Origin: Gammaproteobacteria bacterium
GTDB taxonomy: Bacteria; Pseudomonadota; Gammaproteobacteria; Pseudomonadales; Azotimanducaceae
DNA: 64,000 bases
Direction: 5' to 3'
Assembly: GCA_026707945.1 (NCBI GenBank)
Contig: JAPOVV010000016.1
Coordinates: 124,001-188,000, forward strand
Both the position numbers and the translations under genes were made by a program. The notes beneath the pieces are model-generated. The model saw only the letters and a program-made list of their open reading frames with translations, was not told where the DNA came from and searched no databases. This document shows, piece by piece, positions 27,317 through 45,430 of this stretch. The stretch's first letter is position 1. Each line of letters begins with the position of its first letter.

Positions 27317-27324
27317 TAGGATTT
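27317..27324 (+). promoter_or_regulatory. TAGGATTT element upstream of solenoid copy 1
   Basis: TAGGATTT ends 32 bases before the ATG at 27357. It recurs at nearly the same distance before all six paralogues. TAGGAT matches four of six positions of the bacterial -10 consensus, which would give an untranslated leader of about 25 nt. No conserved -35 is visible. Confidence 0.6.
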
Positions 27325-27356: not shown

Positions 27357-29195
27357 ATGCGAATCGAACGCTCTAATCTCATCTCGGGGCTGATTGGCTC
27401 AGTGATTGGGGGATTCGTGATAGGTATGTCTGTTTTTGTCTTCGTAGGTCGCTTTGAATACGTCAGTGAATCACAAGACCAGCGATTTTCAAACGAAGAA
27501 AGGAAACGTGATACTACTGCAATTACGCCTCGCTTTCCAGAAGATACCAAACTCGATCTAGCAAGTTACGTTCGTGTTCAATCGATCCAAGACATCGCGC
27601 AACTCGATAGTGATTTCGATCGTAACACATCACTACATCTACTACTCTCCCGTGCCGATGTCGATGAAATTGAAAGGTATATCCACCAGAGTATGTCCAT
27701 TCCCTCAAAGAATCAGAGGGATTCCGTTTTATCGACCATCTTTGGTAGGTACGCGTCGGTAGACCCCAATAGAGCATTGGAACGTGTTCTAGCGCTCAGT
27801 CAATTAGACATGAGCGAAAAATCCAACCTTATACGGTCCTCTTTCCACGAATGGTCGCTACTCAACTTCAGTGAAGCCGTTGCGGCTATTGATGCTCTGC
27901 CTTTGCGATTTCAGGAAGTAGCTGCAGAGACGATTATGGTGCGAAGTGAGGGGCTCGCTTTACAACAAAGAGTAGAACTCGCTAGACGGATCGGTCCAAA
28001 CAATGATTGGATCTATCGCACAGTAAATGCCATACGTCGCAGCGTATATAGAGAAGATCCGAGACGTGCGTTCTACACCCGCATCAGTGAAACATCTTTG
28101 CCTAGTGAGATGCTAGGGGACCTAACTTCAATCGCCGAGTATTGGTATGAACGCGACGGAGTAGGAATTCTTGCAGAAATCAATGAATCAATAAGTAACG
28201 CAGTAACGCGGAAACTGGTGTTACAAGGTGTGATTCGGGAAGCCATCTATACCCAAAAGGCAGATCCATTGTTGGTACTCGATGCCGTATTAGCGTTTCC
28301 TAACAAAAAAGATGTTGAAGCAGCAGCAGAATCTGTTTTTTCCAACTGGTCAAGGTCGGAACCTCGACGAGCATTCGAAATGTCGCTACAGTACGATCAT
28401 GTAGTTACCCGAGAATTTCGATCTACACTTTTGTGGAAATGGGCATCCGAGTACCCAGAAGACGTACTTACGGAAGTCGATGGATCGCTAGCCGATTTCC
28501 GTGATCGAGACATCGCCATTGGCTGGGCGCTCGCGCAGATCACTCGTGACTCCCCGGAGGCGGCTATACGTCTCGCAGGTAAACTAGATACGCCGGCAAT
28601 GAGGGTGAAGGCAGGCGATCAAATAATCCAACAATGGGCAGAATACGATGCAGAATCAGCATTTGAATGGTTCATAGAACACAGCGACGAAAAAAATGTA
28701 AGTTATTCCGATTCGTCATTGCTATACGCTTTCACCTCATATTTACGCCAGAATTTCGAATCGGCTAGAGACTATGCGAATCAACACGAGGGAAGGCTAA
28801 AACGAAGGCTCGTCAACCAAGTCGCAAGACACCTCGTCTATTCGGATTTGAATCTAGCGATCGACTACTTACCTAATGTTGATACAGAGTCAAGAACATG
28901 GCTATTGGACGAAATAGGTTGGCAACTCGCCACTCAAGATCCCATCAAAGCACTCGATCTTGGTAAGACAATCGACCATCGGCACCGCGAGAGTTTTTAC
29001 GATTCCCTATTAACCGCATGGGCGAGCGACGATGCCGACACATTACTTGACAGTATCAAGCGAGTGCCACGAGTATATCGGTCAAAAGCGGCAGAGGCAT
29101 TAATCCGCGTACACGAACGCGAGCAAAACTTGAGTAATCGCGACATTCGGGTACTTAACGCTATAGTAGCGGAACACGGCGCAGGTCCACCATAG
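27357..29195 (+). CDS. Membrane-anchored helical-repeat protein, copy 1 of six
   Basis: 612 residues and the most divergent copy. Residues 1-10 are followed by a single membrane segment (about 10-32, GLIGSVIGGFVIGMSVFVFV, with a GxxxGxxxG pattern), a polar linker to about 75, then helical repeats to the end. Repeats of about 33-36 residues carry W or F, then D/NxxxA (for example GRYASVDPNRALERVLAL and QWAEYDAESAFEW). The segment 85-215, which is best conserved among copies, reads NQRDSVLSTIFGRYASVDP here. The C-terminal tail is LSNRDIRVLNAIV. Expected topology is N-in with the solenoid in the periplasm. No catalytic motif is seen and function is unknown. No good ribosome site precedes the ATG. 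Confidence 0.85.
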   Translation: MRIERSNLISGLIGSVIGGFVIGMSVFVFVGRFEYVSESQDQRFSNEERKRDTTAITPRFPEDTKLDLASYVRVQSIQDIAQLDSDFDRNTSLHLLLSRADVDEIERYIHQSMSIPSKNQRDSVLSTIFGRYASVDPNRALERVLALSQLDMSEKSNLIRSSFHEWSLLNFSEAVAAIDALPLRFQEVAAETIMVRSEGLALQQRVELARRIGPNNDWIYRTVNAIRRSVYREDPRRAFYTRISETSLPSEMLGDLTSIAEYWYERDGVGILAEINESISNAVTRKLVLQGVIREAIYTQKADPLLVLDAVLAFPNKKDVEAAAESVFSNWSRSEPRRAFEMSLQYDHVVTREFRSTLLWKWASEYPEDVLTEVDGSLADFRDRDIAIGWALAQITRDSPEAAIRLAGKLDTPAMRVKAGDQIIQQWAEYDAESAFEWFIEHSDEKNVSYSDSSLLYAFTSYLRQNFESARDYANQHEGRLKRRLVNQVARHLVYSDLNLAIDYLPNVDTESRTWLLDEIGWQLATQDPIKALDLGKTIDHRHRESFYDSLLTAWASDDADTLLDSIKRVPRVYRSKAAEALIRVHEREQNLSNRDIRVLNAIVAEHGAGPP

Positions 29196-29313
29196 TCGCT
29201 ACGAGTATGAACCGATTTCCATTTGATTTGCGCGAAGGGCGAGCATCTGTTCGTTAACTTGCATAACCGCCGGGTGCGAGCGGATTGGTCCATCCAGATC
29301 GTCGAACTCCGAG

Positions 29314-29321
29314 TAGGATTT
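29314..29321 (+). promoter_or_regulatory. TAGGATTT element upstream of solenoid copy 2
   Basis: TAGGATTT, preceded by CCGAG, ends 32 bases before the ATG at 29354. It is the same element and spacing as in the other five copies and is read as a -10 region or regulator site. Confidence 0.6.
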
Positions 29322-29353
29322 GAGAGCGTACCAAACTAGCCTCAAGCCTCAAC

Positions 29354-31201
29354 ATGCGCATCAGCGGTTCAATCCTCATCGCTATAGGAACCGGCATCTT
29401 GATCGGAGCTGCAGCCGGTATCTCGATGTACACATGGGTAAAGAAAGGAAGCCCCCGCCAAGTAACAGATTTGAGCACACCTAGCTCGGTCGCGATATTC
29501 GATACGACTTCGAGCTCACCGGCTAATGTGGGGGAAGTTCGCACAGACGAATTGGATTCACATCTGCGAGTCCAATCGGTCCACGAATCATTGGCTTTAG
29601 CAAGTGATTTTGCGCAGAGAGCTTCACTCTATCTCCTGCTTGCAAATGCTGATGAAGCTGACTTTGAAAGATACATCGTAGAGGGTCTCGAGATATCCTC
29701 CAAAAATCAACGCATGGTTGCACTCTCAATCGTTCTTAGTAGATATGCAACGATAAATCCACAGCGCGCCCTTGATGATGCGTTAAGGCTTGATGTTTTA
29801 ACGGAACAGGAGAGGGGTAATCTAGTGTGGTGGATTTTCAATGAATGGATGGAAAGCGATCTCGATGCCGCCGTCACCGCGATGCAAGAGCTACCTCAAG
29901 AATATAAGCGGAGTGCAGCGATGGCCGCGATGTGGCGTCACGATGGCTTGTCAGCGGAAGAACGCGAAGAACTTGCTCGACGGGTTGGATCGACGGATTC
30001 CTGGGTTGACCGCACAGTCGACTCGATTCGGCGTGAGTCATACAGAGATGATCCAAGAACGACATACTACGAGCTTCTTCGCGACACCTCACGTGATAGT
30101 GAAGACAACACTGATTTATCTGAAGTAGCCAAGTACTGGATTGAATCAGAAGGGGTTGCGGTTCTAAGAGAGATTTACGACTCAATTGAGAGCGCTGATG
30201 CTAGATTCTCTGTGCTAAATAACGTGCTTTGGGATGCGATTGAAAACAAGAAGGCGTCGCCCACTTCTTTGCTGCACGAAGTTTCGAAATTCCCTAGGAC
30301 ACGCGAAGCTAAGCAGTTAACACACTACGTACTTCAGCATTGGGCAAATTCATACCCTGAAGCAGCATTCGAAGCATCACTCGAATCCGACCCGCAGTTG
30401 GTAACCGACCATACCAAACAGAGCATATTGGGTATCTGGTCATACGACAATCCAGAAGGGCTATTTGAAGCGGCAATGACCTTTCCAGCCCAATTTCAAG
30501 GCTCGGCGATAACTGAAGCCTTAGTTCAAATTTCACGCAATTCCCCACAAGAGGCAATACGACTTGCACGAAACCTGGATACTCGCACTCTCCGCACATC
30601 AGCGCGGGACGCAATCGTTCGAGGCTGGCGTTCGTCCGATGCAAAAGCCGCGTTCGAGTGGCTCATGAACAACAGACTAGACGTAAAAGCTCCCCGTGAT
30701 ACCTCACTTTGGCACCACACTTTCTCTGTGTATTTAGATGAAGATTACGGAAGCGCTCGAACGTACGTTGATAAGTACGAGGGTGAGTTTAAAGACCTAC
30801 TCACCGAGGCTACGGCACAACACCTTATCGATTCTGATGTGCAGCTGGCTATCGATTACATTCGAAACTTAGATTTAGAAATGACTGAACCGTTACTTCA
30901 TCAGATTGCGTTTTCTTTCGCTAAATTCGATCCGATGGAAGCGCTTAGCTACGGTGAGACGTTAACGAGCGACCAACAGAACGAGTACTACGAAAGCGTG
31001 ATCTGGGAATGGGCAAGCAGCGACTTCGTCGGGTTATTCGACAACATAGACTTGGTTCCTAACGAGTATCGATCGCTAGCTGCAATGCGATTACTCGAAA
31101 TTGATGGGCGGAAGTACTATCTCAGTGACGAAAACGTGAAGAATCTCGAATCGATGATCGATCCAAAAGAAACGGATTTGGAATTGATTGACACGCGGTA
31201 G
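29354..31201 (+). CDS. Membrane-anchored helical-repeat protein, copy 2 of six
   Basis: 615 residues. Begins MRISGSILIAIGTGILIGAAAGISMYTWVKK, a signal anchor with small-residue packing motif, then a linker and the alpha solenoid. The conserved block reads DFAQRASLYLLLANADEADFERYIVEGLEISSKNQR, LSRYATINPQRALDDALRLD and WWIFNEWMESDLDAAVTAMQELPQ. Later repeats include HWANSYPEAAFEASLE and GWRSSDAKAAFEWLMNN. Tail: YLSDENVKNLESM. It is 158 bp downstream of copy 1. No enzymatic residues are recognisable; a scaffold or binding role is the plainest inference. Confidence 0.87.
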   Translation: MRISGSILIAIGTGILIGAAAGISMYTWVKKGSPRQVTDLSTPSSVAIFDTTSSSPANVGEVRTDELDSHLRVQSVHESLALASDFAQRASLYLLLANADEADFERYIVEGLEISSKNQRMVALSIVLSRYATINPQRALDDALRLDVLTEQERGNLVWWIFNEWMESDLDAAVTAMQELPQEYKRSAAMAAMWRHDGLSAEEREELARRVGSTDSWVDRTVDSIRRESYRDDPRTTYYELLRDTSRDSEDNTDLSEVAKYWIESEGVAVLREIYDSIESADARFSVLNNVLWDAIENKKASPTSLLHEVSKFPRTREAKQLTHYVLQHWANSYPEAAFEASLESDPQLVTDHTKQSILGIWSYDNPEGLFEAAMTFPAQFQGSAITEALVQISRNSPQEAIRLARNLDTRTLRTSARDAIVRGWRSSDAKAAFEWLMNNRLDVKAPRDTSLWHHTFSVYLDEDYGSARTYVDKYEGEFKDLLTEATAQHLIDSDVQLAIDYIRNLDLEMTEPLLHQIAFSFAKFDPMEALSYGETLTSDQQNEYYESVIWEWASSDFVGLFDNIDLVPNEYRSLAAMRLLEIDGRKYYLSDENVKNLESMIDPKETDLELIDTR

Positions 31202-31397
31202 TGGACTCAACCTTAGCAATACGTTCGCAGAGTTTTCCAACAGCGTAGTTGAAGAACGGGGAAATTCTGAGCAATTACGCGTATCGGTAGATAGTGGCGT
31301 ATACCTGTATTGAGTTGTTCAGAACGGACTAATCCGATTGGGTTCTTCCCAACGGATAGACCGACGGCTTTCTAGGTCACTAGCTTGAAGACTTGAG

Positions 31398-31405
31398 TAG
31401 GATTT
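31398..31405 (+). promoter_or_regulatory. TAGGATTT element upstream of solenoid copy 3
   Basis: The longer match ACTTGAGTAGGATTT ends at 31405, 31 bases before the ATG at 31437. Copies 3 and 4 share the GACTTGAG/CACTTGAG extension upstream of TAGGATTT. Confidence 0.62.
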
Positions 31406-31436
31406 CATCGAAGCCACCTACCCCAAGAGACTCAAT

Positions 31437-33281
31437 ATGCGGACCAGTGTGGCCATCATCATCTCCATGGTAGTGGGCACTCTGTTCGGCGGCCTTATCG
31501 CCGGTGTATCCGTTTACGTGTGGTCAGATCAAGATCATCCAGCCCAGATATCAGACCTGAACGTACGGATACCTGATGCGATGCGGGATTCCACTTCTAT
31601 TTCGCCAGCAATTGCTCGGGAACGATTTACTGGCGATCTGAATTCCAGCCTTCGCGTCCGAACGGTGCACGGTTCAACTCAATTTGCGAGCGACTTCGAT
31701 CAGAGCGTGTCGCTCTATCTGCTTCTCTCAGGAGCCAACAAACGTGACCTTGAAAAATACATCAGCGAGAGTTTCTCAATATCCTCTAGAAATCAACGTG
31801 TTGCAGCACTCTCCATCATCTTTGGTCGTTACGCAGCACTAGATCCATCCGAAGCGCTCACCCGGGCACTTGCACTCAGTCCGTTGACAGCGCAAGAGCG
31901 ATCCAATCTAGTACGGTCCATCTTCAACGAGTGGACAGTGGCCGATCTAGATGCCGCGGTAGCCGCCATTGAAGAATTGCCACAGCCATTCAAATTCACA
32001 GCCGCGTCAGCAGTTGTGTGGCGAAGCGACGACCTTACCCTGGAACAACGTCGACAGCTCACGCAACGCGTTGGACCGACTGATGCGTGGATCTCGCACA
32101 CGCTTAACAACATCGAGATGGACGAACTAAAACACAATCCACGACAAGCCTATTACGATCGTATTCGCGATTCAACCCACACGCGTGAATCCAACTCCGC
32201 CTTATTAGGTATAGCAAGACATTGGTTTGAATTAGAAGGTGTTTCCGTTCTTGAAGAAATCCATGATTCGCTCGATAACTCGCAAGCGCGGAATTTCGTC
32301 TTGACTAATTTGATTTGGAACGCGGTGGGAAGTGGTACGGCTGAACCTAGTGAGATACTCGAGGTCGCTTCTGGTTTTGACAACAAACAAACCGCGAAGC
32401 AGGCAATGGAGTACGTATTTCAATCATGGTCGAACACAAATCCGAGAGACTCTTTTGAGGCGTCGCTTGAGTACGACGATCAGCTAGTTACACACGAATT
32501 TCGATCGTCGCTTTTGCAACGATGGGCAGTTCGGGATGCAGAGGATTTACTCGTGGAAGCAACCTCCTTGCCGACTCGCTATCGTGACACTGCAATAGCG
32601 AAAGCGCTCGGGGGTATGTCACTCAAATCTCCTGACGAAGCAATCCGTTACGCACGCACCTTAGACTCCCACAAGCTACGTATGAGCGCTCGAGATGAGA
32701 TTCTCAAGCAATGGTCAACGGTTGATGCGAAATCAGCGTTCGAATGGTTATTGACGGATGACCTGAGTGGAAACAGTCCACCGGACCTTTCCCGCTGGCA
32801 CCGTACATTTTGGGCGTACCTGACGCAAGACTTCGAATCAGCAAAGACTTTCGCAACGAATCATCAAGGTGAACTTCGAGAGCATCTCATCGAATCCGTA
32901 GCGGGACACTTGGTTAGATCGGATGTAAAACGTGCGATCGAATACTTACCAAATGTAGAGAAAACCTATAGACCCAATTTACAAAATCAGATCGGTAGCG
33001 AGTTAGCACGTATGGATCCTTTTGAAGCGCTCAAATATGCGTCACAGGTCGCGCCAGCTCACCGATTCAGCTACTTCAACACCGTGCTCAACGCATGGGC
33101 ACAAATGGATATGGTCTCACTTCACGACAACATTTCACAAGTACCAAGCAAATACCGATCAGAGGCGGCTAGAGTGCTGCTCCGTGTTGACGGACGAAAG
33201 AACCTACTTAGCGATCGCGAGATAAAGAGTCTAGAGGAAATGGTTGCTAATGACGATGATTTCATCGCAACGTCGGAATAA
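31437..33281 (+). CDS. Membrane-anchored helical-repeat protein, copy 3 of six
   Basis: 614 residues. Membrane segment about 7-30 (IIISMVVGTLFGGLIAGVSVYVW), linker to about 80, solenoid to the end. The conserved block reads SDFDQSVSLYLLLSGANKRDLEKYISESFSISSRNQRVAALSIIFGRYAALDP and is nearly the same in copies 4 and 5. WSTVDAKSAFEWLL and AYLTQDFESAKTFA are typical later repeats. Tail: LLSDREIKSLEEMVA. Separated from copy 2 by 235 bp containing its own TAGGATTT element. Function unknown. Confidence 0.88.
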   Translation: MRTSVAIIISMVVGTLFGGLIAGVSVYVWSDQDHPAQISDLNVRIPDAMRDSTSISPAIARERFTGDLNSSLRVRTVHGSTQFASDFDQSVSLYLLLSGANKRDLEKYISESFSISSRNQRVAALSIIFGRYAALDPSEALTRALALSPLTAQERSNLVRSIFNEWTVADLDAAVAAIEELPQPFKFTAASAVVWRSDDLTLEQRRQLTQRVGPTDAWISHTLNNIEMDELKHNPRQAYYDRIRDSTHTRESNSALLGIARHWFELEGVSVLEEIHDSLDNSQARNFVLTNLIWNAVGSGTAEPSEILEVASGFDNKQTAKQAMEYVFQSWSNTNPRDSFEASLEYDDQLVTHEFRSSLLQRWAVRDAEDLLVEATSLPTRYRDTAIAKALGGMSLKSPDEAIRYARTLDSHKLRMSARDEILKQWSTVDAKSAFEWLLTDDLSGNSPPDLSRWHRTFWAYLTQDFESAKTFATNHQGELREHLIESVAGHLVRSDVKRAIEYLPNVEKTYRPNLQNQIGSELARMDPFEALKYASQVAPAHRFSYFNTVLNAWAQMDMVSLHDNISQVPSKYRSEAARVLLRVDGRKNLLSDREIKSLEEMVANDDDFIATSE

Positions 33282-33305
33282 GCACATTGCTTTCTTTTTG
33301 ATTTC

Positions 33306-33332
33306 AGTGCTCATTTCGACTTGGTGAGCACT
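33306..33332. promoter_or_regulatory. Perfect inverted repeat next to the copy 4 promoter element
   Basis: AGTGCTCA (33306-33313) and TGAGCACT (33325-33332) are perfect 8-bp inverted arms around an 11-base spacer. The second arm ends four bases before TAGGATTT. The same TGAGCACT lies four bases before TAGGATTT in copy 5 (39280-39287). This placement suggests a regulator-binding site. Confidence 0.5.
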
Positions 33333-33336
33333 TGAG

Positions 33337-33344
33337 TAGGATTT
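33337..33344 (+). promoter_or_regulatory. TAGGATTT element upstream of solenoid copy 4
   Basis: The match GAGCACTTGAGTAGGATTT ends 32 bases before the GTG at 33377. It is the fullest version of the shared element and is adjacent to the inverted repeat at 33306-33332. Confidence 0.65.
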
Positions 33345-33376
33345 GGAATTTAAGTTCGTGAACGAGCAGACCCATC

Positions 33377-35221
33377 GTGCGCGTCAGTCGCTTAACGTTA
33401 ACTGTGAGTGTAGCTGTAGCTTTGATCGGTGGCTTCTCGGTCGGAGTATCGGTTTACTCTTGGCTAGGTAAAGAGCGTACTGTCCAATTGCCGATCGCAG
33501 GGTCGGTGAACTCGGAACGGATGCAGGTATTTGATCCAATTTCACCCGACTCTACGCATGCGGAACCCACCAGCACACTAAACCAAGCCCTCCGCGTCCA
33601 GTCTGTACTGGAATCCACGAAATTGAAGAGCGATTTCGATCAAAGCGTATCCATGTACCTGCTTCTTGCTCGAGCCAAAGAGGAAGACCTTAACAGATAC
33701 ATTAGTGAGAGTTTCTCAATTTCGTCGAGAAATCAACGCGTTGCAGCTTTTTCCATCATCTTTGGTCGATATGCCGCAATCAATCCCAATCGCGCGCTTG
33801 AACGAGCACTAGCGATTGATCAGTTGACAATGCAGGAGAAGTCAAACGTCATACGCTCAATTTTCAATGAATGGACGGTCGGCGATCTAGACGCTGCAGC
33901 AGTAGCCGCGGCGAACTTATCTCAGCAGTACAAATTCTCGGCTGCTTCCGCCATCATGTGGCGAAGCGATTTCCTTTCTTCAGACGAACGAGCCGAACTT
34001 GCTCGTCTAATCGGTCCCAATGATGCATGGATTGACAACGCGATCGCTTCGATACGAAGTGATGAAGCTAAGGTTGATCCGCGCGCAGCGTTTTACGATC
34101 ACATTCGCGTCGCAGCGCATACGCAGAAGCACTACACGGAACTCTTTGGCATTGTTCGGCATTGGTTTGAACGCGATGGCGCAACGATACTCCCGGAACT
34201 TCATGAGTCGCTCGAAAACCCTAATGCACGAAGGTTCGTCCTACAAAACTTGATCTGGAATGCGATTGCAACTAAAACGGCGACACCTGTCGAAATTCTC
34301 AATGTGGTTGCTGAACTTCCCAAACAACAAGATGCCAGACAGGCAATGGAGCATGTCTTTCGGTCGTGGGCGAACCTAGATCCGAAGCAATCTTTCGAAG
34401 CATCGCTTGAGTTTTCTGGTCCTCTCGTCACGCATGACCTTCGAACGTCAATGCTGCGAATTTGGGCAGCTAAGGACTTCGAGGGATTACTCAGCGAAGC
34501 GTCGAGTTTGCCGCCAGAGTACCGAGACGCCGCGGTTGTACAAGCACTCGGACGCATGTCCATCAATGCACCTCAAGAAGCAATTCACCACGCACGAAAT
34601 CTAGACACGCATGCACGGCGCATCGCTGCACGAGATGAAATCGTTGCGCAGTGGTCGAATGCCGATGCAAAAACCGCTTTTGAGTGGCTGATGAACGACG
34701 GTTTTAGCGAAAACGACGAAAGCGTGCCTTCGATTTGGCGCCAGACGTTTTCGAAGTACATAGAACAGAACTTTGATGCTGCGCAGGCTTACGCCAGTAC
34801 CTACGAAGGTGCGTTGAAAAATCAGCTCATGGAGAAAGTAGGAAGTCATCTGATCCGCTCGGACATCGATAAAGCAATCGATTTCTTGCCGAACGTTAAA
34901 GGCAAATGGCACACTTTCCTACAAAACGATATAGGACGAGAACTTGCCCGTCAGAACCCAATCAGAGCTTTGAAATTTGGCGAGACCGTACCGGCGAGTC
35001 AACGCGACGAGTATTACGTAGCCATGATCAATGCATGGGTTGACGAAGACGTCGCTGCCTTGTATGACAACATACAGCGCGTACCTGAAACGCATCAGTC
35101 ATTTGCAGCTGAGCAAGCGCTCTACCGCGATGAAAACAGACAATACCTAAGCGAACGCCAGATAAAGAGACTTGAGTCGATGGTGACGACTGAAGAGGTG
35201 ATTGTCAACAGTTGGGATTGA
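33377..35221 (+). CDS. Membrane-anchored helical-repeat protein, copy 4 of six
   Basis: 614 residues from a GTG start; the GTG is followed by CGC as in copy 5, and both are preceded by CCATC. Membrane segment about 8-29 (TVSVAVALIGGFSVGVSVYSW). Conserved block at 85-215: SDFDQSVSMYLLLARAKEEDLNRYIS, SISSRNQRVAAFSIIFGRYAAINP, IRSIFNEWTVGDLDAAAVAA, SAIMWRSDFLSSDERAELARLIG. Later repeats are more variable (RSWANLDPKQSFEASLE, QWSNADAKTAFEWLMNDG). Tail: YLSERQIKRLESM. Only 95 bp separate it from copy 3. Function unknown. Confidence 0.88.
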   Translation: MRVSRLTLTVSVAVALIGGFSVGVSVYSWLGKERTVQLPIAGSVNSERMQVFDPISPDSTHAEPTSTLNQALRVQSVLESTKLKSDFDQSVSMYLLLARAKEEDLNRYISESFSISSRNQRVAAFSIIFGRYAAINPNRALERALAIDQLTMQEKSNVIRSIFNEWTVGDLDAAAVAAANLSQQYKFSAASAIMWRSDFLSSDERAELARLIGPNDAWIDNAIASIRSDEAKVDPRAAFYDHIRVAAHTQKHYTELFGIVRHWFERDGATILPELHESLENPNARRFVLQNLIWNAIATKTATPVEILNVVAELPKQQDARQAMEHVFRSWANLDPKQSFEASLEFSGPLVTHDLRTSMLRIWAAKDFEGLLSEASSLPPEYRDAAVVQALGRMSINAPQEAIHHARNLDTHARRIAARDEIVAQWSNADAKTAFEWLMNDGFSENDESVPSIWRQTFSKYIEQNFDAAQAYASTYEGALKNQLMEKVGSHLIRSDIDKAIDFLPNVKGKWHTFLQNDIGRELARQNPIRALKFGETVPASQRDEYYVAMINAWVDEDVAALYDNIQRVPETHQSFAAEQALYRDENRQYLSERQIKRLESMVTTEEVIVNSWD

Positions 35222-35360
35222 GACGACTTCGTACGTATTAAGAAAGACTTAGCGTCACAGTTTTGAGAATATTTGATTCCTTGTAAATATCGCCATCAAC
35301 CGCCAACAGTTGTATTAACTCGGCGAGAAATAATGACAACCGCGAATTGGAGAGATCGAT

Positions 35361-37646
35361 ATGCCACTTCCACAAGCTTCTTCAGACTTCAAAGGGAAAA
35401 TAGGTCCCACAGTAGCTGAATCCGAACCCTACTTCGAGCAGCGACGCCACCCAGGTTCTGATTCGCCGAACGTCGCGATCGTGCTGTTGGACGATGTCGG
35501 ATTCTCACAGTTTGGTTGTTACGGCTCGGATATCGATACTCGACACATTGACCGGCTCGCTGCGAACGGATTGAAATTCACGAATTTCCACGTCACGCCT
35601 TTGTGCTCGCCAACTCGTGCGTCGTTGCTGACCGGCCGATCCCAGCACGCCGTCGGCATGCGCACCATCTCAAACTTCACCACCGGTTTTCCTAACCAAC
35701 TCGGGCATATTGCGAATAACGCAGGAACCATCGCCGAGGTGCTTCGCGCTGAAGGTTATGTCACTCTGTGCACAGGTAAGTGGCACTTGGCACCGACAAG
35801 TGAGACGTCAGCCGCTGGCCCGTTTGACCAATGGCCACTTGCCCGTGGCTTCGATCGCTTCTACGGTTTCCTTGAGGGTGAGACTGATCAGTTCCACCCG
35901 GAACTCGTAGTCGACAATCACCACATCGACGCTCCCAAAACCGCCCAACAAGGCTACCACCTGAGCGAAGACCTCGTTGATCAGCTTCTTAGAATGATCA
36001 ACGACAACCGATCCATACGCCCGGATCGACCATTCTTCGCGTACCTTCCATTCGGTGCGACACACGCACCTCATCAAGCGCCGCAAGCCTATTTAGATAA
36101 ATACCGCGGCGGCTACGACGACGGCTGGGACGTCGTGCGCCAACAGTGGTACGAACGCCAGATCGACTTTGGCGTTATTCCTAAGCACACCACGCTTGCG
36201 CCACACAATCCGGGCGTAAAGCCTTGGGAGGAACTCACCGACAACGAGAAACTGCTTGCCTGTCGTCTTCAAGAAGCATTTGCCGCGTTCTTAGACCACA
36301 CCGATGACCAAATTGGGCGGTTCGTCAACGGGCTTGAAGCGATGGGTGAGTTGGACAACACCATATTGATCGTCATGGCGGACAACGGCGCGTCTCAGGA
36401 AGGCGGTCCGCACGGCGTACTGCACGAAATGAAGTACTTCAACGGCATTGTCGAGTCCCCGGACGAAGCCGTTCAAAGCGTCGACGAGATCGGTGGACCC
36501 AGAAGTCACACCAACTACCCTTGGGGATGGGCTCAGTGTGGCAATACACCGTTCCGGTGGTATAAGCAGAACACTCACGAAGGGGGCGTTCATGTCCCAA
36601 TGATTCTGCACTGGCCGCGACAAGTCAGCCAGTCCGATCGCGGCACCCTTAGACACCAATTCATTAACGTCTCCGATATTGCACCGACGATCTACGATCT
36701 GCTCAACGTCACTGCACCCGATGAACTTAAGGGGCATAAGCAGCTACCAATCACGGGGCGATCGTTTGTGACAGCGATTGAAAGTCCCGACGCCCCCGCA
36801 ACCAACCAACTGCAGTACTTCGAAAACGGCGGTTCACGCGGGCTGGTAGTGGAGCACGACGGTTGTTGGTGGAAAGCGGTAACTCGTCATATTCAGGGCG
36901 TCCCATTTGATGAAGATCGGTGGGAGCTCTACGATCTAGATTCTGACCCGTCCGAGTGCAACGATCTCGCAGAGACTGAGCCTGAGCGACTCAAGTCATT
37001 GATTGATCTGTGGTGGAGTGAAGCGGAGCGACATGGCGTATTGCCGCTTGACGATCGCATGAGGCAGTTGTTCCGGCGCAAACCCGATGACCATTCACCT
37101 CATCCGACCAATAGACGTTATCGCTACCGTCCACCAATGTCGCCGATTCCCACCGCGGCGTCACCGTTGCCAGGCGGTTCAGCTTGGGACATGCAAGCGC
37201 GCATAACCCGACGTGAAGGTGAAGAAGGTGCTATCTTCGCAATTGGTAACGCGAACGCTGGTTTATCGGTATTTATCCAGAATGAACGCCTCATCTTCGA
37301 TTACAACGCCTTTGGAGCTCATACGATCGTCGAGTCCGCAACGGACGTACCGGTCGATGAATCTTCGGTCTCGGTCCACCTTCGCCGCACGGCGGGAACG
37401 CCGGGTGGTAACGCGACGGTTGCCATAAACGGTAATGTCTGTGGCGATGCTGAGATTCCCTACATGATGTTCGCGATCAGCTCGGTAGGTTCTAGCGTTG
37501 GAGAAGACTACGGACTAGCCGTTTCAGACCGTTACGAAGCGCCATTCGCGTTCACCGGCACCCTGCATGAAATTGACATCGAATTGGGCAGCACGAGCGA
37601 CGCGCAAGTCGCTGCACATGCCCGGGCTGAGCTGGCACGCCAGTAA
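35361..37646 (+). CDS. Arylsulfatase (type I, formylglycine-dependent)
   Basis: 761 residues. The sulfatase domain begins NVAIVLLDDVGFSQFGCYG, with the metal Asp pair at 44-45. The modification motif C82-S-P-T-R86 sits in VTPLCSPTRASLLTGR, where the Cys becomes formylglycine. GKWHLAP, PFFAYLPFGATHAPHQAP, VMADNGASQEGG and GGVHVPMILHWP complete the active site. A C-terminal region of about 200 residues looks like a beta-sandwich. No Sec signal peptide is visible at the ATG. Size and motifs match large arylsulfatases acting on sulfated organics. It sits between copies 4 and 5 of the solenoid array. No maturase (anSME or FGE) gene is nearby. Confidence 0.93.
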   Translation: MPLPQASSDFKGKIGPTVAESEPYFEQRRHPGSDSPNVAIVLLDDVGFSQFGCYGSDIDTRHIDRLAANGLKFTNFHVTPLCSPTRASLLTGRSQHAVGMRTISNFTTGFPNQLGHIANNAGTIAEVLRAEGYVTLCTGKWHLAPTSETSAAGPFDQWPLARGFDRFYGFLEGETDQFHPELVVDNHHIDAPKTAQQGYHLSEDLVDQLLRMINDNRSIRPDRPFFAYLPFGATHAPHQAPQAYLDKYRGGYDDGWDVVRQQWYERQIDFGVIPKHTTLAPHNPGVKPWEELTDNEKLLACRLQEAFAAFLDHTDDQIGRFVNGLEAMGELDNTILIVMADNGASQEGGPHGVLHEMKYFNGIVESPDEAVQSVDEIGGPRSHTNYPWGWAQCGNTPFRWYKQNTHEGGVHVPMILHWPRQVSQSDRGTLRHQFINVSDIAPTIYDLLNVTAPDELKGHKQLPITGRSFVTAIESPDAPATNQLQYFENGGSRGLVVEHDGCWWKAVTRHIQGVPFDEDRWELYDLDSDPSECNDLAETEPERLKSLIDLWWSEAERHGVLPLDDRMRQLFRRKPDDHSPHPTNRRYRYRPPMSPIPTAASPLPGGSAWDMQARITRREGEEGAIFAIGNANAGLSVFIQNERLIFDYNAFGAHTIVESATDVPVDESSVSVHLRRTAGTPGGNATVAINGNVCGDAEIPYMMFAISSVGSSVGEDYGLAVSDRYEAPFAFTGTLHEIDIELGSTSDAQVAAHARAELARQ

Positions 37647-37674
37647 CATGATTAATTGAAGGCAGCGAGGTTTA

Positions 37675-38700
37675 TTACTCCGTTACGTTGATCTCTGTTC
37701 CGCCGGCTGGTAGCTGCAATGTCATCCCATCCTGAGCCAGACGCCAATCGAGCGAATGGCCCTCCTCAATGCCCTCCTCAACACCTTTGGTAAAGGTTTC
37801 CTCGAACCCGGGCATACCCGCTTGCGTAAGGTGATTCAGCACCAGCATCTTCACGCCCGCCGACTGGGCTAGTTTCGCGGCTTCCCGCGGTTCGGTATGG
37901 TAGGTCACCGTGTCAGCGAGAAGCGCAGCACCCCGTGGATTTACTTGGCTCACGCTACGCGAAACTGCCACCATCATGTCGTTACTCTGCGCCTCATGGA
38001 TGAGCACATCCGCACCTTTAGCAACGATACCGAGCGGCGGCCAGTTCACGGTATCACCACTAATTACCACGGAGCGTCCTTTGTAATCAAATCGGTAACC
38101 GAAAGCAGGACTGACGGGATCATGAACGACACGAATTGCCGTAATGGTTAGTTCTCCATCGTTCAAGGCAATCGCCGTGCCCCCTGGCTCCGGAATTTCG
38201 ACGATTTTCGAACGCAGCTCAGCAGCATCCAGTGGGAACTTGACGACCCCATGTTCGTGATGTGCTTTACGGAATACCCGGTCTCGTTCGTAGACGAGGT
38301 TGAATCCGTTGGCTAATTTGTCCACACCGTCAGGTCCGATTACTGTCAACGGCACGTCTCGACCTCCGATCCAGCTCTGTTGGGCTGCCTCACCGATACC
38401 AGCTATATGGTCACTGTGCAGATGGGTAACAAGGATTGCCTTCAATCTAGTTACCGGCGCCCGCATCCGCCGCAACGTATTCCAACCGCCTACTCCGTTA
38501 TCGACCAGATAAAGCGCGTCACCTGCCTGAACGGCCGTGCAAGGCTCGGCACGGCCAGAGCCTGGAAGAGGCCCTCCGGTCCCACAGAAATAAACCTTGA
38601 GACCATCGAAGCCTTGCGCATGTGCTGTATTTAAAGTGACAAGAGATATCACAGTCACAACCAGAACTGATCTAGCTACCGTGAGTGCATTTCTGCTCAT
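37675..38700 (-). CDS. Exported metallo-beta-lactamase-fold hydrolase
   Basis: 341 residues. Signal peptide about 1-29 (RSVLVVTVISLVTLNTAHA before QGF). The zinc motif H93-L-H-S-D-H98 in VTHLHSDHIAGIGE identifies the RNase Z/arylsulfatase-like branch of the fold. VVISGDTVNW supplies the bridging Asp and a C-terminal VLNHL the last His. Similar exported proteins are annotated as arylsulfatase- or lactonase-like hydrolases. Convergent with the type I sulfatase gene (28-bp gap), so both may act on related sulfate esters, which is inference. Confidence 0.88.
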   Translation of the reverse strand: MSRNALTVARSVLVVTVISLVTLNTAHAQGFDGLKVYFCGTGGPLPGSGRAEPCTAVQAGDALYLVDNGVGGWNTLRRMRAPVTRLKAILVTHLHSDHIAGIGEAAQQSWIGGRDVPLTVIGPDGVDKLANGFNLVYERDRVFRKAHHEHGVVKFPLDAAELRSKIVEIPEPGGTAIALNDGELTITAIRVVHDPVSPAFGYRFDYKGRSVVISGDTVNWPPLGIVAKGADVLIHEAQSNDMMVAVSRSVSQVNPRGAALLADTVTYHTEPREAAKLAQSAGVKMLVLNHLTQAGMPGFEETFTKGVEEGIEEGHSLDWRLAQDGMTLQLPAGGTEINVTE

Positions 38701-39334
38701 TTGATTTCTCCGTGAGTCGCCGCATACTAGACGGGCGATGACGTTACTCGTACCTGGCTCGTGTTTCGAAATTTGGACACGCCTTGATGCCAGTTCTAAC
38801 TCTATCCCGCGTATCCTAGCGACCGAAAGGGCTCTCCCTTACTAGGACGCAGTAAAACGCGTAGTGAGCACGATCGAAGCCGAGTTATTTCCATACTTTT
38901 TTCGATTTACCATGATCGTGAGTCCCCTTCGGCGACAGCTTGATCATTGTCGCTGTGTGGCGGTCGAGAGCCAATCTGAATGGCAGCTGGCTGACTGAAG
39001 CGGCTACGCGACATCCATACGAATTTGATTGACAGTCTGTCTCGGAGATGGTCATTGCACATAGAGAAAAACGAGACTCAGAACTACTGTCTAATGGTCA
39101 TTGTGAGCTTTCGGTCCTGCAAGTGTCCAACTCTACAACTGATCAACAGATCGGAAATCTCGCACGCATGCCGATGCGTATTACTTGAATTTCGGAGTGT
39201 CATGATTCGCGTCAATTCACTCTCGTAGAACGCGGTTTCTCCAAAATGGTCAGCTCCCTACACAATGATCTCAAGTGTTTGAGCACTAACGTAGGATTTA
39301 GGAATATCTAACAGAAAGAACTGGGAACGCCATC
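38701..39334. other. 634-bp intergenic region before solenoid copy 5
   Basis: No gene is supportable. A GCGACA/TGTCGC inverted pair occurs around 38930-38955. At the right end lie TGAGCACT (39280-39287) and the TAGGATTT element of copy 5. The rest has no long ORF and no recognisable gene remnant on either strand. It may represent an old deletion or insertion scar within the array. Confidence 0.4.
39292..39299 (+). promoter_or_regulatory. TAGGATTT element upstream of solenoid copy 5
   Basis: TAGGATTT ends 35 bases before the GTG at 39335. TGAGCACT lies four bases upstream, as in copy 4, and TAGGAAT follows as in copy 6. Confidence 0.62.
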
Positions 39335-41179
39335 GTGCGCATCAGTAGCTCCGTTCTGATTACTAGCGTAGCTCTCGCGTCGCTCGCTTGTTTTACCGCC
39401 GGACTAGCCGTCCACGCGTGGCTCGCCAAAGAGCAGCCGGTCCAATTACCCCATCAACGTTCACCCATCGCTGAACCGACGGTTGAATCTGCACCTGCGA
39501 TTACAGCACGTGCCCAGGAGCGTTCGAATAGTGCACTAGACGCCCTCTTTCGAGTCCGGTCTGTTAAAGCCTCAACGGAATTCGCAAGCGATTTCGATCA
39601 AAGTGTATCGCTGCACCTGCTCCTGGCTCGGGCAGACGAAAATGAGCTGAAGAGATACATCAGTGAAAGTTTCTCGATCTCGTCTCAAAATCAACGTGTT
39701 GCGGCTCTCGCCATCATTTTTGGTCGTTACGCAGCAATCGATCCAAACGAGGCGCTCGAACAGGCACTTACGCTCACTCAGTTGACGGTACAGGAGAGAT
39801 CGACCCTCATACGGTCCATTTTTAACGAGTGGACCTTCGGCGATCTAGAAGCTGCGGTGGTGGCACTGGACGACTTACCTCAACATTACAAACCATCGGC
39901 CGCTTCAGCGATCATGTGGCGAAGCGATTTCCTTTCTCGAGATCAACGTGTGCAACTTGCAGAGCAAATCGGATTAGATGAAGCGTGGACTAATAGAACT
40001 GTCGCTTCCATCCGACACGAATCCGCAAAGGCTGATCCCCGAAGTGCGTTTTACGACCAAATTAGAGACGTGCCTCATACACAAGAAAACTACGCTGAAC
40101 TGTCTGGCATTGTTTTGCATTGGCTCGAACGCGACGGCGTTGCGATTCTCCTAGAAATCCACGAAGCACTCGATAACTCGAGAGCAAGGGTGTCTGTACT
40201 ACAAGGCTTGATATGGAACGCAATCTCAACTAATACGGCAACACCAACCGAGATTCTCAATGTCGTATCTGATCTTCCAAACAAACAAGACGCGTGGCAG
40301 ACAACGGAGTACGTATTTCGTTCTTGGGCAACCTTTGATCCCAAAAAATCCTTCGAAGCGTCGTTTGAGTTCACCGATCCATTGGTAACACGTGCTTGCC
40401 GATCTTCGATACTACGAGCGTGGGCCTCTAAAGACGCAGACGGGTTACTTACGGAAGCGTCGTCATTCCCCTTTGAATATCGAAATACCGCGGTCATCAT
40501 CGCGCTTGGACGAATGTCGCGCGACGCACCAGAAGCAGCGATACGACACGCACGCAATCTGGACACGCACGGATTACGAAGCCAGGCACGAGAAGCGATC
40601 ATACGCGAATGGTCAGAGGTCGATGCGAAATCGGCATTTGAGTGGTTCATGAATGACAGCTTTAACGACGATGCAAGAGACGACTATTCAATTTTTTGGC
40701 GTGTATTTACTTCCTATTTAGGTCAAGATTTTGAGTCGGCGCAGAGATACGCTGAAGCGTACGATGGCGAGTTAAAACATCGAGTAACCGAAGCTGTTGC
40801 AAGATATTTGATCGATACGGACTTGGAACGCGCCATGGAATATTTACCGAAGGTGCGAGTAAGCGCTCGTGGGTCGCTTCAATATGCAATCGGTCAGGAG
40901 ATGGCAGAATCAAGACCTCTTGAAGCTCTCGATTATGGCGCGACGATCCATAAAGAGCGCCATGACCAATACTACGGCCAACTACTAGGTAGGTGGGCTA
41001 ACAGAGACTTCTTCTCGCTCCATCAAAATATTCAAAAGGTTCCACACGCATATCGAGGTCATGCGGCGCGGGACTTACTCCGCATTAATAAACACAAAAG
41101 CTACTTGAGCACTCGTGACGTCCGGACACTTGAGGATATCGTGGCGTCAGCGCCGCCAATTGTTCCTCAGGGGGAGTGA
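39335..41179 (+). CDS. Membrane-anchored helical-repeat protein, copy 5 of six
   Basis: 614 residues from a GTG start. MRISSSVLITSVALASLACFTAGLAVHAWLAKE is the signal anchor; a Cys lies inside the membrane segment, unlike the other copies. The conserved block reads SDFDQSVSLHLLLARADENELKRYISESFSISSQNQRVAALAIIFGRYAAIDPNEALEQALTL. Later repeats include RSWATFDPKKSFEASFE and EWSEVDAKSAFEWFMND. Tail: YLSTRDVRTLEDIVA. Separated from copy 4 by the sulfatase and metallo-hydrolase genes. Function unknown. Confidence 0.88.
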   Translation: MRISSSVLITSVALASLACFTAGLAVHAWLAKEQPVQLPHQRSPIAEPTVESAPAITARAQERSNSALDALFRVRSVKASTEFASDFDQSVSLHLLLARADENELKRYISESFSISSQNQRVAALAIIFGRYAAIDPNEALEQALTLTQLTVQERSTLIRSIFNEWTFGDLEAAVVALDDLPQHYKPSAASAIMWRSDFLSRDQRVQLAEQIGLDEAWTNRTVASIRHESAKADPRSAFYDQIRDVPHTQENYAELSGIVLHWLERDGVAILLEIHEALDNSRARVSVLQGLIWNAISTNTATPTEILNVVSDLPNKQDAWQTTEYVFRSWATFDPKKSFEASFEFTDPLVTRACRSSILRAWASKDADGLLTEASSFPFEYRNTAVIIALGRMSRDAPEAAIRHARNLDTHGLRSQAREAIIREWSEVDAKSAFEWFMNDSFNDDARDDYSIFWRVFTSYLGQDFESAQRYAEAYDGELKHRVTEAVARYLIDTDLERAMEYLPKVRVSARGSLQYAIGQEMAESRPLEALDYGATIHKERHDQYYGQLLGRWANRDFFSLHQNIQKVPHAYRGHAARDLLRINKHKSYLSTRDVRTLEDIVASAPPIVPQGE

Positions 41180-41454
41180 AAGTCCTTTTTTGACACATTA
41201 GCGCCGCGAACACTTGCGGTTTCCATGGTTTAAACGGAAAATAATTTGACGTCGATGGAATCACCAGTCTTCTGGTATCCACGTAAGAAAGCTGGTGCGT
41301 TGGATTCCTTGATCAATTTATCTGCAAATTACAGATTGCCACCGACGTATCGATCTGACTGCTAACGTGTACATTTCGACGTACCGAGATGGAGGATCGT
41401 TTTCCGTAAGATCGCATATGACTGAAAGTAGTAAAAATGCTAAGTTAATTGTCA
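41180..41454. other. Intergenic stretch after solenoid copy 5
   Basis: 275 bases with no recognisable gene. A 36-residue ORF starting near 41253 lacks family similarity that I can see. It is followed directly by the two gene remnants annotated at 41455-41745, so the whole gap between copies 5 and 6 is best viewed as degenerated sequence. Confidence 0.35.
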
Positions 41455-41660
41455 TATTTCCGGTAAATTTGCCAATACGTATAGCAGAAGTCCCACCAGC
41501 CTTGAGCGATCGTTCTTTCTATTTGTACCTCGCGGCACCGGTAAAACGATTTAGATTAAAGACCGGTTCAACGACGCACTTGCATTTGACTTACTCGACT
41601 ATGCGACCTTTAGCCGATTGTTCCGAAACCCTTCGGAGCTTTACGATGAGGTCGCAACGT
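41455..41660 (+). pseudogene. Remnant of a DUF4143-type AAA ATPase gene (5' part)
   Basis: Two frames together read as the N-terminus of an AAA ATPase of the DUF4143 group. The first (from 41463) gives LPIRIAEVPPALSDRSF. After a frameshift near 41510 the second gives RSFFLFVPRGTGKTI, an in-frame TAG, then IKDRFNDALAFDLLDYATF and SRLFRNPSELYDEVATS. Walker A PRGTGKT and the DALxFDLLD strand are typical. The homology stops about 41660, before Walker B. The plus-strand ORF 41367-41759 crosses the wrong frame and is not a gene. Confidence 0.72.
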
Positions 41661-41745
41661 CGAATCTATCGTTTTCACCCTTGTAATGGAGAGAGTTTGC
41701 CGCGGACAGGTGATCGCCGATCATGCAACAGTAAGAGCGCTCACT
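41641..41745 (-). pseudogene. Remnant of a metallophosphoesterase 3' end
   Basis: On the minus strand this reads SYCCMIGDHLSAANSLHYKG then ENDRFDVATSS and stop. It aligns without gaps to the C-terminus of the intact protein at 43715-44458, which has YDYMIGDCRCVANPCGYPGE then SDRFESAKIVEV. About 14 of 30 residues match (Y, MIGD, AN, Y, GE, DRF, A), and the DNA is visibly alike over some 84 bases. Everything upstream of the C-terminal 35 residues is gone, replaced by the promoter region of copy 6. Confidence 0.7.
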
Positions 41746-41749
41746 TAAG

Positions 41750-41757
41750 TAGGATTT
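41750..41757 (+). promoter_or_regulatory. TAGGATTT element upstream of solenoid copy 6
   Basis: CACTTAAGTAGGATTT ends 32 bases before the ATG at 41790, matching the copy 4 version in all but one base of the CACTT-AGTAGG stretch. A GAGCGCTC palindrome lies just upstream. Confidence 0.62.
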
Positions 41758-41789
41758 AGGAATTACTTCTAGTCACTGGGAGCTCAGTC

Positions 41790-43646
41790 ATGCGTATCGG
41801 TGGCTCAGTTCTAATCGCGGTCGTAGTTCTGGCATTGATCGGGGGCTTCGTTGCGGGAATATCTACTAATTCACTGCTACCAAAAAAGCAATCTGACTCA
41901 GTTTCTCGTCACCACGAGCCACACTCTGAATCCACAAGTGAATCCGGTCCGATTCCACGACACACTGCTACGAGGTCACACGCTGCCGCACTAGAAGACC
42001 CCGTCGCCGATATCCAATCGATCCTCGATTTATCGAGATTCGCTAGCGACTTTGACCAGAGCGCGTCGCTTTACGCCTTTCTCGCCAATGCCGAAGAAGA
42101 AGACCTTATTAGATACATCAGCGACAGTTCTGCCATCTCGTCGATTAACCAACGTGTTGACGCTCTCTCTATCATCTTTGGTCGCTACACTGCGATCAAT
42201 CCGCACGAGGCACTAAAGCGGGCATTAGCACTTAAGCAGTTAACGTTGCGGGAGAAATCAAACGTTATACGAGCAATCTTCAATGAGTGGACGGTGCAAG
42301 ACTCAGATCGTGCCGTCGCAGCGATGAAGAGCCTCCCTCATCAGTTTCGATTCCCTGCCGCAGTAGCCGTTCATTGGCGTAGCGATTTCCTCTCCGTCGA
42401 CCAGCGTATTCAACTTGCTCAACAGATCGACCTGAATGAAACTTGGGTTGCGAACGCTATCGCCTCGATTCGCAGTGATGCGGCCAGAGGCGATCCACGA
42501 ACCGCTTTCTACGACTATATTCGTAAAACAAGCCCTTCTCAAGACACCCATTTGGAGTTGTTTGGCATCGCTAGAAATTGGTTTGAGCTCGACGGCATCG
42601 CGGTTTTGCCCGAAATTTATAAGTCGCTCCCGAGCATAGACGCTAGAAAGTATGTGTTACAGGGTCTGGTTCGACATGCGATTGGAACTAGACTGGCTCA
42701 ACCAGCAACAGTTCTCGGCGTAGTGGCAGAAATCCCCAACACACAAGATGCAAGACGGGCAGCAGAACATGCATTCCGATCGTGGAGCGAATACGATCCG
42801 AAGCAGTCGTTCGAAGCTTCCATAGAGTTCGGCGATCACTTAGTCACACCTAGGTTTCGGGCGACATTACTTCAGATTTGGGCGGCTAAGGATCCTGAGG
42901 CTTTACTTCGAAACGCGTCTGCACTACCTCGGAAATATCAAGATGCTGCTGTCGTTAAGGGACTTGGACAGTTGTCTATTGATACACCAGACGTAGCCAT
43001 TCGATACGCACGAAGCTTAGATACACGCCCGCTTCGAATCCTGGCAAGAGATGAGATCTTGACTCAATGGTCATCCGTCGACGCGAAATCTGCCTTTGAG
43101 TGGCTAATGGATGACGGTTTCGACGGCAGCCATAGGAGCAATCCTTCGATTTGGAGCGACATTTTTGCTAAATTTCTCGAACAAGACGTTGAAGCCGCTA
43201 GAACATACGCTGAAAACTACGACGGCAGCCTACGAAATAGTCTAACTGAAAGCGTTGCTCGATATTTGATCCATTCGGATGTGGAACGAGCAATCAAGTA
43301 TCTACCTAACCTAGAAGACTGGCGCCAGAGTTGGTTACGGGAACACGTTGGTAGAAAACTCGTCACGGTAAACGCAAACAGAGCTATAAGTTATGGTGTA
43401 TCCCTACCGAAGGAGTTTCAACGAAGATACTTCACGGACGTGATAAATGAGTGGGCATATCGAGACCTCGTCAATTTGACCGAGAACATTCAGCTCGTTC
43501 CGTCGGAATTTCGATCTATCGCGGCGAAGGAAATTCTTGGTTGGAACGAAGAGAGGGGATACCTTAGCGATCACCAGATTACAAGACTTGAGGCCATGGC
43601 ACCTAGCGACGAGGAGGAGTTAATCGTTACGAGTGGAGGGTGTTAG
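41790..43646 (+). CDS. Membrane-anchored helical-repeat protein, copy 6 of six
   Basis: 618 residues, ATG with GGGAG 8-12 bases upstream. Signal anchor MRIGGSVLIAVVVLALIGGFVAGIS, then a His/Ser-rich linker (HHEPHSESTSE) longer than in the other copies. The conserved block reads SDFDQSASLYAFLANAEEEDLIRYISD, SINQRVDALSIIFGRYTAINP and IRAIFNEWTVQDSDRAVAAM. Later repeats include RSWSEYDPKQSFEASIE and QWSSVDAKSAFEWLMDDGF. The tail YLSDHQITRLEAMAPSDEEE ends in GGC, an unusual terminal Cys. Function unknown. Confidence 0.88.
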   Translation: MRIGGSVLIAVVVLALIGGFVAGISTNSLLPKKQSDSVSRHHEPHSESTSESGPIPRHTATRSHAAALEDPVADIQSILDLSRFASDFDQSASLYAFLANAEEEDLIRYISDSSAISSINQRVDALSIIFGRYTAINPHEALKRALALKQLTLREKSNVIRAIFNEWTVQDSDRAVAAMKSLPHQFRFPAAVAVHWRSDFLSVDQRIQLAQQIDLNETWVANAIASIRSDAARGDPRTAFYDYIRKTSPSQDTHLELFGIARNWFELDGIAVLPEIYKSLPSIDARKYVLQGLVRHAIGTRLAQPATVLGVVAEIPNTQDARRAAEHAFRSWSEYDPKQSFEASIEFGDHLVTPRFRATLLQIWAAKDPEALLRNASALPRKYQDAAVVKGLGQLSIDTPDVAIRYARSLDTRPLRILARDEILTQWSSVDAKSAFEWLMDDGFDGSHRSNPSIWSDIFAKFLEQDVEAARTYAENYDGSLRNSLTESVARYLIHSDVERAIKYLPNLEDWRQSWLREHVGRKLVTVNANRAISYGVSLPKEFQRRYFTDVINEWAYRDLVNLTENIQLVPSEFRSIAAKEILGWNEERGYLSDHQITRLEAMAPSDEEELIVTSGGC

Positions 43647-45226: not shown

Positions 45227-45430
45227 GCGAGTTCGCGGACCGCTATTTCTTATATGACATTTTTTGAACTGATTGATCGCGAAGGTACTGCCTAGTTGCG
45301 ATCCCGACACTCGACTGAATGGGTTTAGCTGATCCAACGTAGCTAATTGGACCGACATTCTTAAAATCACGCGTGCGTAAAACGTGTCAATATTTATCCG
45401 GCTTGCTGGAATCAGAGGTTAGCGACTGAC

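Follow-up and report, generated by a model that had tools for sequence, protein, structure and literature searches.

A nameless, strongly expanded family of predicted membrane-anchored alpha-solenoid proteins in a genus of the Azotimanducaceae

Introduction

PPR proteins bind RNA within cells or organelles, and the superhelical domain of soluble lytic transglycosylases is a periplasmic alpha-superhelix. Among eukaryotic cytosolic and nuclear proteins, the HEAT/ARM group (PP2A A subunit, importins, SF3B1, CAND1) has the same general kind of shape. Here we describe a family of predicted alpha-solenoid proteins represented by six paralogous genes in a 64,000-nucleotide stretch of DNA (hereafter the window) from a Gammaproteobacteria bacterium of the Azotimanducaceae (GenBank assembly GCA_026707945.1, contig JAPOVV010000016.1, positions 124,001 to 188,000). 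The family is real, maintained, strongly expanded in the genus and nameless; it is new at the family level and known at the fold level.

Results

Six paralogous genes in the window

A previous reading of the window, made from the letters of the DNA (the sequence-only reading), had reported six same-direction paralogues of 612-618 residues with shared motifs, and these were present as claimed. The six open reading frames (ORFs), all on the + strand between 27357 and 43646, encode 612, 615, 614, 614, 614 and 618 amino acids (aa) and aligned from end to end, with pairwise identities of 36-53% (36-42% for paralogues 2-6 against paralogue 1).

27357..29195, + strand: paralogue 1, predicted membrane-anchored alpha-solenoid, 612 aa (ORF, alignment, AlphaFold2 pLDDT 81)
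29354..31201, + strand: paralogue 2, 615 aa (ORF, alignment)
31437..33281, + strand: paralogue 3, 614 aa (ORF, alignment)
33377..35221, + strand: paralogue 4, 614 aa (ORF, alignment, AlphaFold2 pLDDT 83)
39335..41179, + strand: paralogue 5, 614 aa (ORF, alignment)
41790..43646, + strand: paralogue 6, 618 aa (ORF, alignment)

The closest relatives of paralogue 5 were found in genomes G010 (61%) and G017 (70%, where the match is a fragment of a broken gene), and that of paralogue 6 in G017 (67%). No remnants of further copies were detected at E<=10 in the gaps between the window paralogues.

Predicted fold and membrane anchor

Two AlphaFold2 models were obtained, the first with an alignment of the six window paralogues (predicted local distance difference test, pLDDT, 81; predicted template modelling score, pTM, 0.54), and the second, for paralogue 4, with an alignment of 17 sequences (pLDDT 83, pTM 0.63). 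Each model began with a predicted disordered part of 67-71 residues, which contained a hydrophobic helix and had a pLDDT<50, and the remainder was an all-helical solenoid of about 16 hairpins; in the paralogue 4 model the low-confidence helix spanned residues 7-27 and the solenoid began at about residue 77. The solenoid proposed in the sequence-only reading was thus recovered by structure prediction, with the repeated helical hairpins and the predicted superhelix of an alpha-solenoid. Sixteen repeat units of about 33 residues shared a common profile (a W/L-A core, then D-P, then A-L), with hand-placed anchors on the second helix of every hairpin; the profile self-similarity was 1610, versus 1315 +/- 37 (maximum 1443) in 1000 jittered anchor sets, so the internal repeat exceeds chance. 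Among the 50 Foldseek matches to the PDB listed for each model, most titles were those of alpha-solenoids and some were those of designed proteins, which took two of the three highest places for model 1, and the whole-length template modelling (TM) score was 0.36 or lower in the matches listed for both models.

Membrane topology was assessed in 190 solenoid-family ORFs of at least 400 aa from the fetched stretches. A strong hydrophobic segment was present within the first 80 residues in 170 of them; five had possible lipoboxes and 15 had neither, some of the latter being cut at a stretch edge or starting late. Net charge was more positive before than after the segment in 157 of the 170 ORFs, which places the solenoid, by prediction, on the outer side of the membrane. 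Given the low confidence of the N-terminal helix in the models, the membrane anchor that had been proposed stands on hydrophobicity and charge and not on structure prediction.

In 51 diverse members, M1, W437, P235, W426 and A500 were the columns with little or no variation; no catalytic-type residue was seen among the conserved columns, and 137 of the 190 ORFs had no cysteine after residue 30. The conserved columns are structural, and the most likely role of the protein is accordingly that of a scaffold for binding, not of an enzyme.

Comparison with family libraries

The claim that no system of this form had been described agreed with the searches, as no fitting family was found in Pfam, NCBIfam, PHROGs or PADLOC. 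The six window proteins had no Pfam match above cut-off, and the 51 diverse members gave scattered weak matches in the 25 of 38 matched Pfam families that were examined. No match of weight was found in NCBIfam, or in PHROGs and PADLOC for the seven proteins searched there. The NCBIfam DnaD_dom match on paralogue 3 (E 2.6e-4, below cut-off, absent from the other five) was taken as chance, and a known anti-phage defence protein was rejected, the sole PADLOC match among the seven proteins being Csn2 at chance level (E 0.032).

Neither TPR models nor the catalytic (lysozyme-like) domain of lytic transglycosylases matched the six window proteins at E<=1. Among the 51 diverse members, TPR_19 was found in three, TPR_14 in two, and TPR_6, TPR_10 and TPR_12 in one each (best E 8.6e-4); PPR models matched one of the 51 in Pfam (E 0.028) and one of the 51 in NCBIfam (E 7e-4), and HEAT_2 matched one (E 0.044), too few for the family to be assigned to PPR or HEAT. 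A profile of the 51 members matched PDB chains of designer PPR proteins (6een, E 3e-13), a likeness that is one of solenoid architecture only, and its match to lytic transglycosylases was not significant (E 0.09); the profile of the six window paralogues alone gave no PDB match of weight. No description of the family was found in the titles and abstract openings that were listed by searches of the open-access PMC literature.

Copy number across the genus and beyond

Matches to a family profile (A2), which are not always whole genes, were counted across the genus in 18 genomes. Expanded sets of 39-116 matches were carried by ten of them, which belong to sister species and measure 2.5-3.4 Mb (G008 116, G014 98, G007 87, G012 77, G005 64, G015 60, G009 58, G002 51, G003 46, G011 39); the others had 7 (window genome), 6 (G017), 3 (G010 and G004), 2 (G001), 1 (G016) or none (G006 and G013), with completeness below 90% in G001, G004 and G013. 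The seventh match of the window genome was distant, partial and on another contig. The fetched sequence of G008 confirmed 79 distinct full-length ORFs (560-720 aa); for the count in this genome 120 of 130 candidates were scored with A2, and a second profile, A1, gave 118 matches, some being two pieces of one gene. Taking 1.85 kb for each of 116 matches in a genome of 2.7 Mb, we estimate that the solenoid family reaches up to about 8% of one genome: a family with no model in four curated libraries fills perhaps a twelfth of it, which we judge unusually large for bacteria.

Within the taxonomic family, scoring up to eight candidate places per genome, matches at E<=1e-10 were found in 46 of 150 genomes; these represent 18 of 37 genera, counting that of the window genome. 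Genus g328 shows a further expansion on a smaller scale, reaching 22 matches, of which many are pieces. Outside it the family was rare, being found in three of 368 other genomes of the class sample and two of 397 others of the phylum sample (up to three candidates scored per genome), and no A1 match was found in 21 genomes of the same order. The survey of related genomes suggested in the sequence-only reading thus found arrays in several species. Searches for mobile carriage gave no plasmid match for one family member and no PHROGs match for seven proteins.

A shared box upstream of each paralogue

The sequence TAGGATTT occurs exactly six times on both strands of the 64-kb window, each time 39-43 nt before the start codon of a paralogue; with an even base composition, 128 kb should contain about two by chance.

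27317..27324, + strand: TAGGATTT box, 40 nt before the start of paralogue 1
29314..29321, + strand: TAGGATTT box, 40 nt before the start of paralogue 2
31398..31405, + strand: TAGGATTT box, 39 nt before the start of paralogue 3
33337..33344, + strand: TAGGATTT box, 40 nt before the start of paralogue 4
39292..39299, + strand: TAGGATTT box, 43 nt before the start of paralogue 5
41750..41757, + strand: TAGGATTT box, 40 nt before the start of paralogue 6

The ten genes of relatives that were examined matched 6-8 of the eight box bases, and in nine of them the box lay at 39-43 nt from the start codon used. The exception was G010a, where it lay 22 nt before an uncertain ORF start, in a family match with an internal stop. 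The consensus over the 16 genes (six from the window and ten from relatives) was CTTGAGTAGGATTT. Among 46 other ORF starts in the window, none had a match of 8/8, one had 7/8 and two had 6/8. The box may be a -10-like element or the site of a regulator; a sigma-70 consensus scan found no promoter site at the boxes. The separate promoters that had been proposed were therefore supported by a box before each gene, but not by the sigma-70 scan.

Turnover at the window locus and orthologues in the sister clade

The array lies between conserved boundary genes and is not contiguous, a correction to the sequence-only reading: all six paralogues are there, but a sulfatase and an MBL-fold gene stand between the fourth and the fifth.

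26213..27175, - strand: PhyH dioxygenase, conserved left boundary, 86-89% identical in four relatives' loci
35361..37646, + strand: sulfatase within the array (PF00884, SGSH_C; Pfam)
37675..38700, - strand: MBL-fold hydrolase within the array (Pfam)
43715..44458, - strand: calcineurin-like phosphoesterase, conserved right boundary, 77-88% identical in three relatives' loci

Most flanking genes were 77-98% identical in relatives, with a nonsynonymous divergence (dN) mostly of 0.01-0.1, and the best solenoid-family matches per locus had identities of 36-70% and dN of 0.18-0.6. Many of these family pairs are not orthologues and their synonymous divergence (dS) is often saturated, so that dN is the safer measure. 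The solenoid family thus turns over fast between conserved neighbours, and copies at one syntenic site numbered six in the window, three in G010 and one in G016. A gene at 44600-45370 (- strand, 256 aa, no Pfam match) also evolves fast, with 53-74% identity in relatives among slow neighbours.

In a FastTree phylogeny of 170 full-length members (midpoint rooting), one clade of 14 (support 1.0) united all six window genes with eight genes of G001, G010, G016 and G017, for which reason the expansion in the window lineage looks independent of the large one. A mosaic tract in a G016/G017 pair was set aside, that G017 copy being frame-shifted.

In the sister clade, the arrays of G009, G012, G005 and G002, read from 20-kb stretches and incomplete, each have a flanking gene in common with a G008 array on one side. 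Reciprocal best partners of its 12 full ORFs numbered eight in G009 and seven each in G012, G005 and G002, with median identities of 84.6%, 77.5%, 81.8% and 65.8%, respectively (lowest single pair 42.9%); the flanking genes were 82.6-92.4% identical. The dN/dS ratio was 0.17-0.35 in 14 chosen orthologue pairs versus 0.05-0.20 in eight flanking pairs, values indicating that the orthologues are under purifying selection, looser than that on their neighbours. The mostly one-to-one orthologues in the array compared argue for distinct retained roles of the copies. The dS was uneven along single gene pairs (e.g. 0.07 vs 0.53), which suggests recombination. Solenoid positions fixed within orthologues and differing between paralogues (n = 22) fell mainly in helix A (16 of 232 positions), with fewer in helix B (4 of 154) and loops (2 of 124), a pattern that would fit surfaces specific to each paralogue.

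Redoxins, sulfatases and other neighbours

A second family, of about 600 aa and with an N-terminus read as secreted, was found in the G008 arrays (12 members in the stretches examined). Six members were scanned, and all had a TlpA/AhpC-TSA redoxin domain, with DUF4369 above the cut-off in one and below it in two.

L064-L070, e.g. L068:4667-6511 and L064:15262-17145: TlpA-like redoxins, secreted or lipoproteins

Redoxin matches (E<=1e-20) numbered 48 in G005, 40 in G008, 32 in G002 and G014, 27 in G015, 26 in G003, 23 in G012, 18 in G009, 15 in G007 and 14 in G011, and 0-3 in the other eight genomes. A 935-aa protein with bacterial PH domains (bPH_2) also lies among the G008 arrays (L068:14847-17654).

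The sulfatase of the window has an 88% identical relative in G010, there too between two solenoid-family genes. A sulfatase partnership as a general rule was rejected, the counts dropping as solenoid counts climb (Spearman -0.55, 18 genomes): PF00884 was absent from seven of the ten expanded genomes, with four copies each in G003, G007 and G015; five genomes with few solenoid matches (0-7) had 11-17 copies, and the remaining three, which are incomplete, had 7 (G001), 4 (G004) and 0 (G013).

No conserved genomic partner was found in 12 stretches from other genera. In three of them (L136:15260-16003, L138:6594-7349 and L142:11139-11957) a sugar-isomerase-like gene, its identity read from sequence, adjoins family members and carries repeated MKPISVQLYSLR near its start; in G018 (L103:11585-12142) the adjoining gene is peroxiredoxin-like, similarly identified. 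The second gene upstream of the window array (22794-25814, - strand) encodes a 1006-aa protein with a fibronectin type III domain.

Discussion

We favour, with slightly better than even confidence, the explanation that these proteins are inner-membrane-anchored, non-catalytic periplasmic scaffolds or receptors with diversified surfaces, co-regulated and grown by duplication. Each gene would encode a single-pass inner-membrane protein with its N-terminus inside, whose large C-terminal domain of about 16 helical hairpins would reach into the periplasm and serve there, without catalysis, as a scaffold or receptor. Exposed residues would diversify on a preserved fold, and the paralogues might thereby each hold a different partner; a common upstream element would control the six genes one by one, making them a co-regulated set; and the family would have grown by duplication independently in the window lineage and in the sister clade. 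Of the two possibilities raised in the sequence-only reading, a family diversifying its binding surface fits better than a scaffold of six interchangeable subunits, because copy numbers from 0 to 116 in one genus argue against a fixed six-part assembly and orthologues stay distinct.

Several observations weigh against this explanation. Twelve TAGGAT(A/T)T sites were found in five named loci, eight at family genes and four elsewhere; in G008 the box was not evident, TAGGAT lying near two of 82 ORF starts, themselves uncertain. Two family members look like convincing lipoproteins, and the anchor helix has low confidence in both AlphaFold2 models. The helix-A excess depends on manually assigned helix boundaries and a set of five orthologue groups, and dN/dS was below 1 in every region compared, highest in the N-terminal part, giving no sign of positive selection on the solenoid. 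Broken copies, with stops or a split frame, occur in G010 and G017; maintenance without decay, as the sequence-only reading had it, therefore describes the six open, equal-sized window genes better than it does their relatives.

A wider and more tentative proposal is that one genus has built a genome-scale repertoire of envelope receptors of fixed format and variable surface, kept as distinct orthologues between species and expanded together with secreted redoxins; this would be a system for recognition or sorting in the periplasm that has not been described before. Concrete handles on the ligands, on why dozens of versions persist, and on whether periplasmic solenoids can form a recognition repertoire are offered by the sets of syntenic orthologues, by the common box and by the redoxins that expanded alongside.

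The alternative that survives best, unlikely in our estimate, is that the solenoids, exposed at the cell surface or set free from the cell, act on cells of a sponge host, as ankyrin-repeat proteins of sponge symbionts reportedly do. The fast turnover between conserved flanks and the nearby fibronectin type III protein would suit such a role, as would the enrichment of eukaryote-like repeat proteins in sponge symbionts reported in PMC8163846. Yet the anchor resembles an inner-membrane helix in most members, and no ankyrin, LRR or WD40 family was seen among the 25 examined Pfam families of the 51 members, TPR and HEAT being stray and weak. The link to a host is itself partly a guess, in that the label COS on the metagenome-assembled genomes of two of the four named relatives, read as Coscinoderma, a sponge from which such genomes have been studied, suggests such an origin and does not prove it; the record titles name no habitat.

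Rather improbable is a role in which the solenoids hold partner enzymes, chiefly the secreted TlpA-like redoxins that expanded with them. Redoxin and solenoid counts rise together over the 18 genomes (Spearman 0.88), but within the ten expanded genomes the correlation was 0.42 (p 0.23), so that a difference between clades may explain the joint rise. For ten of 69 listed redoxin genes a listed solenoid gene lay no more than 500 bp away, where random placement would give 0.8; the lists were partial (69 of 121 redoxins and 147 of 248 solenoids, four genomes), and the expectation ignores clumping of the two families in shared regions. No redoxin of that family was found in the 12 stretches from other genera or among eight Pfam-scanned window neighbours, and the solenoids are mostly without cysteines.

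We give still less weight to the idea that the solenoids are variable antigens or recognition proteins of the envelope, engaged in conflict with phages or competing cells. The unequal copy numbers at one syntenic site, the higher dN of the family than of most flanking genes and the recombination suggested by uneven dS would all be expected of them; against this, searches for phage and defence proteins yielded nothing in PHROGs and a single PADLOC match at chance level, the Pfam scan of the neighbours recognised no toxin or immunity gene, and orthologues in the expanded-clade array compared are kept under purifying selection. Near-neutral duplication, with copies piling up to little function, is already disfavoured and very improbable: the broken copies and the 25 of 57 tree cherries joining same-genome copies (in a sample dominated by G008, 79 of 170) are outweighed by six open window genes of 612-618 aa, each preceded by a box, by dN/dS well below 1 and by syntenic orthologues in the sister clade.

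Compared with known systems, the window family shares with the eukaryotic-like proteins of sponge symbionts that both are repeat proteins, the latter enriched in symbiont genomes, but it is not recognisably ankyrin, LRR, TPR, HEAT or WD40, the classes counted in PMC8163846. It has a predicted periplasmic alpha-superhelix in common with soluble lytic transglycosylases, without their catalytic domain. HEAT/ARM proteins have the general shape of many of the Foldseek matches listed, without sequence relation to the window family and at the low whole-length TM-scores given above. No TPR or PPR model recognises the window family as such. Like TPR and PPR proteins, it is predicted to be built of roughly 33-residue helical hairpins stacked in a superhelix; unlike the intracellular or organellar PPR proteins, it is predicted to be membrane-anchored and periplasmic, and this predicted anchor and orientation outside the cytoplasm would speak against sequence-specific RNA binding.

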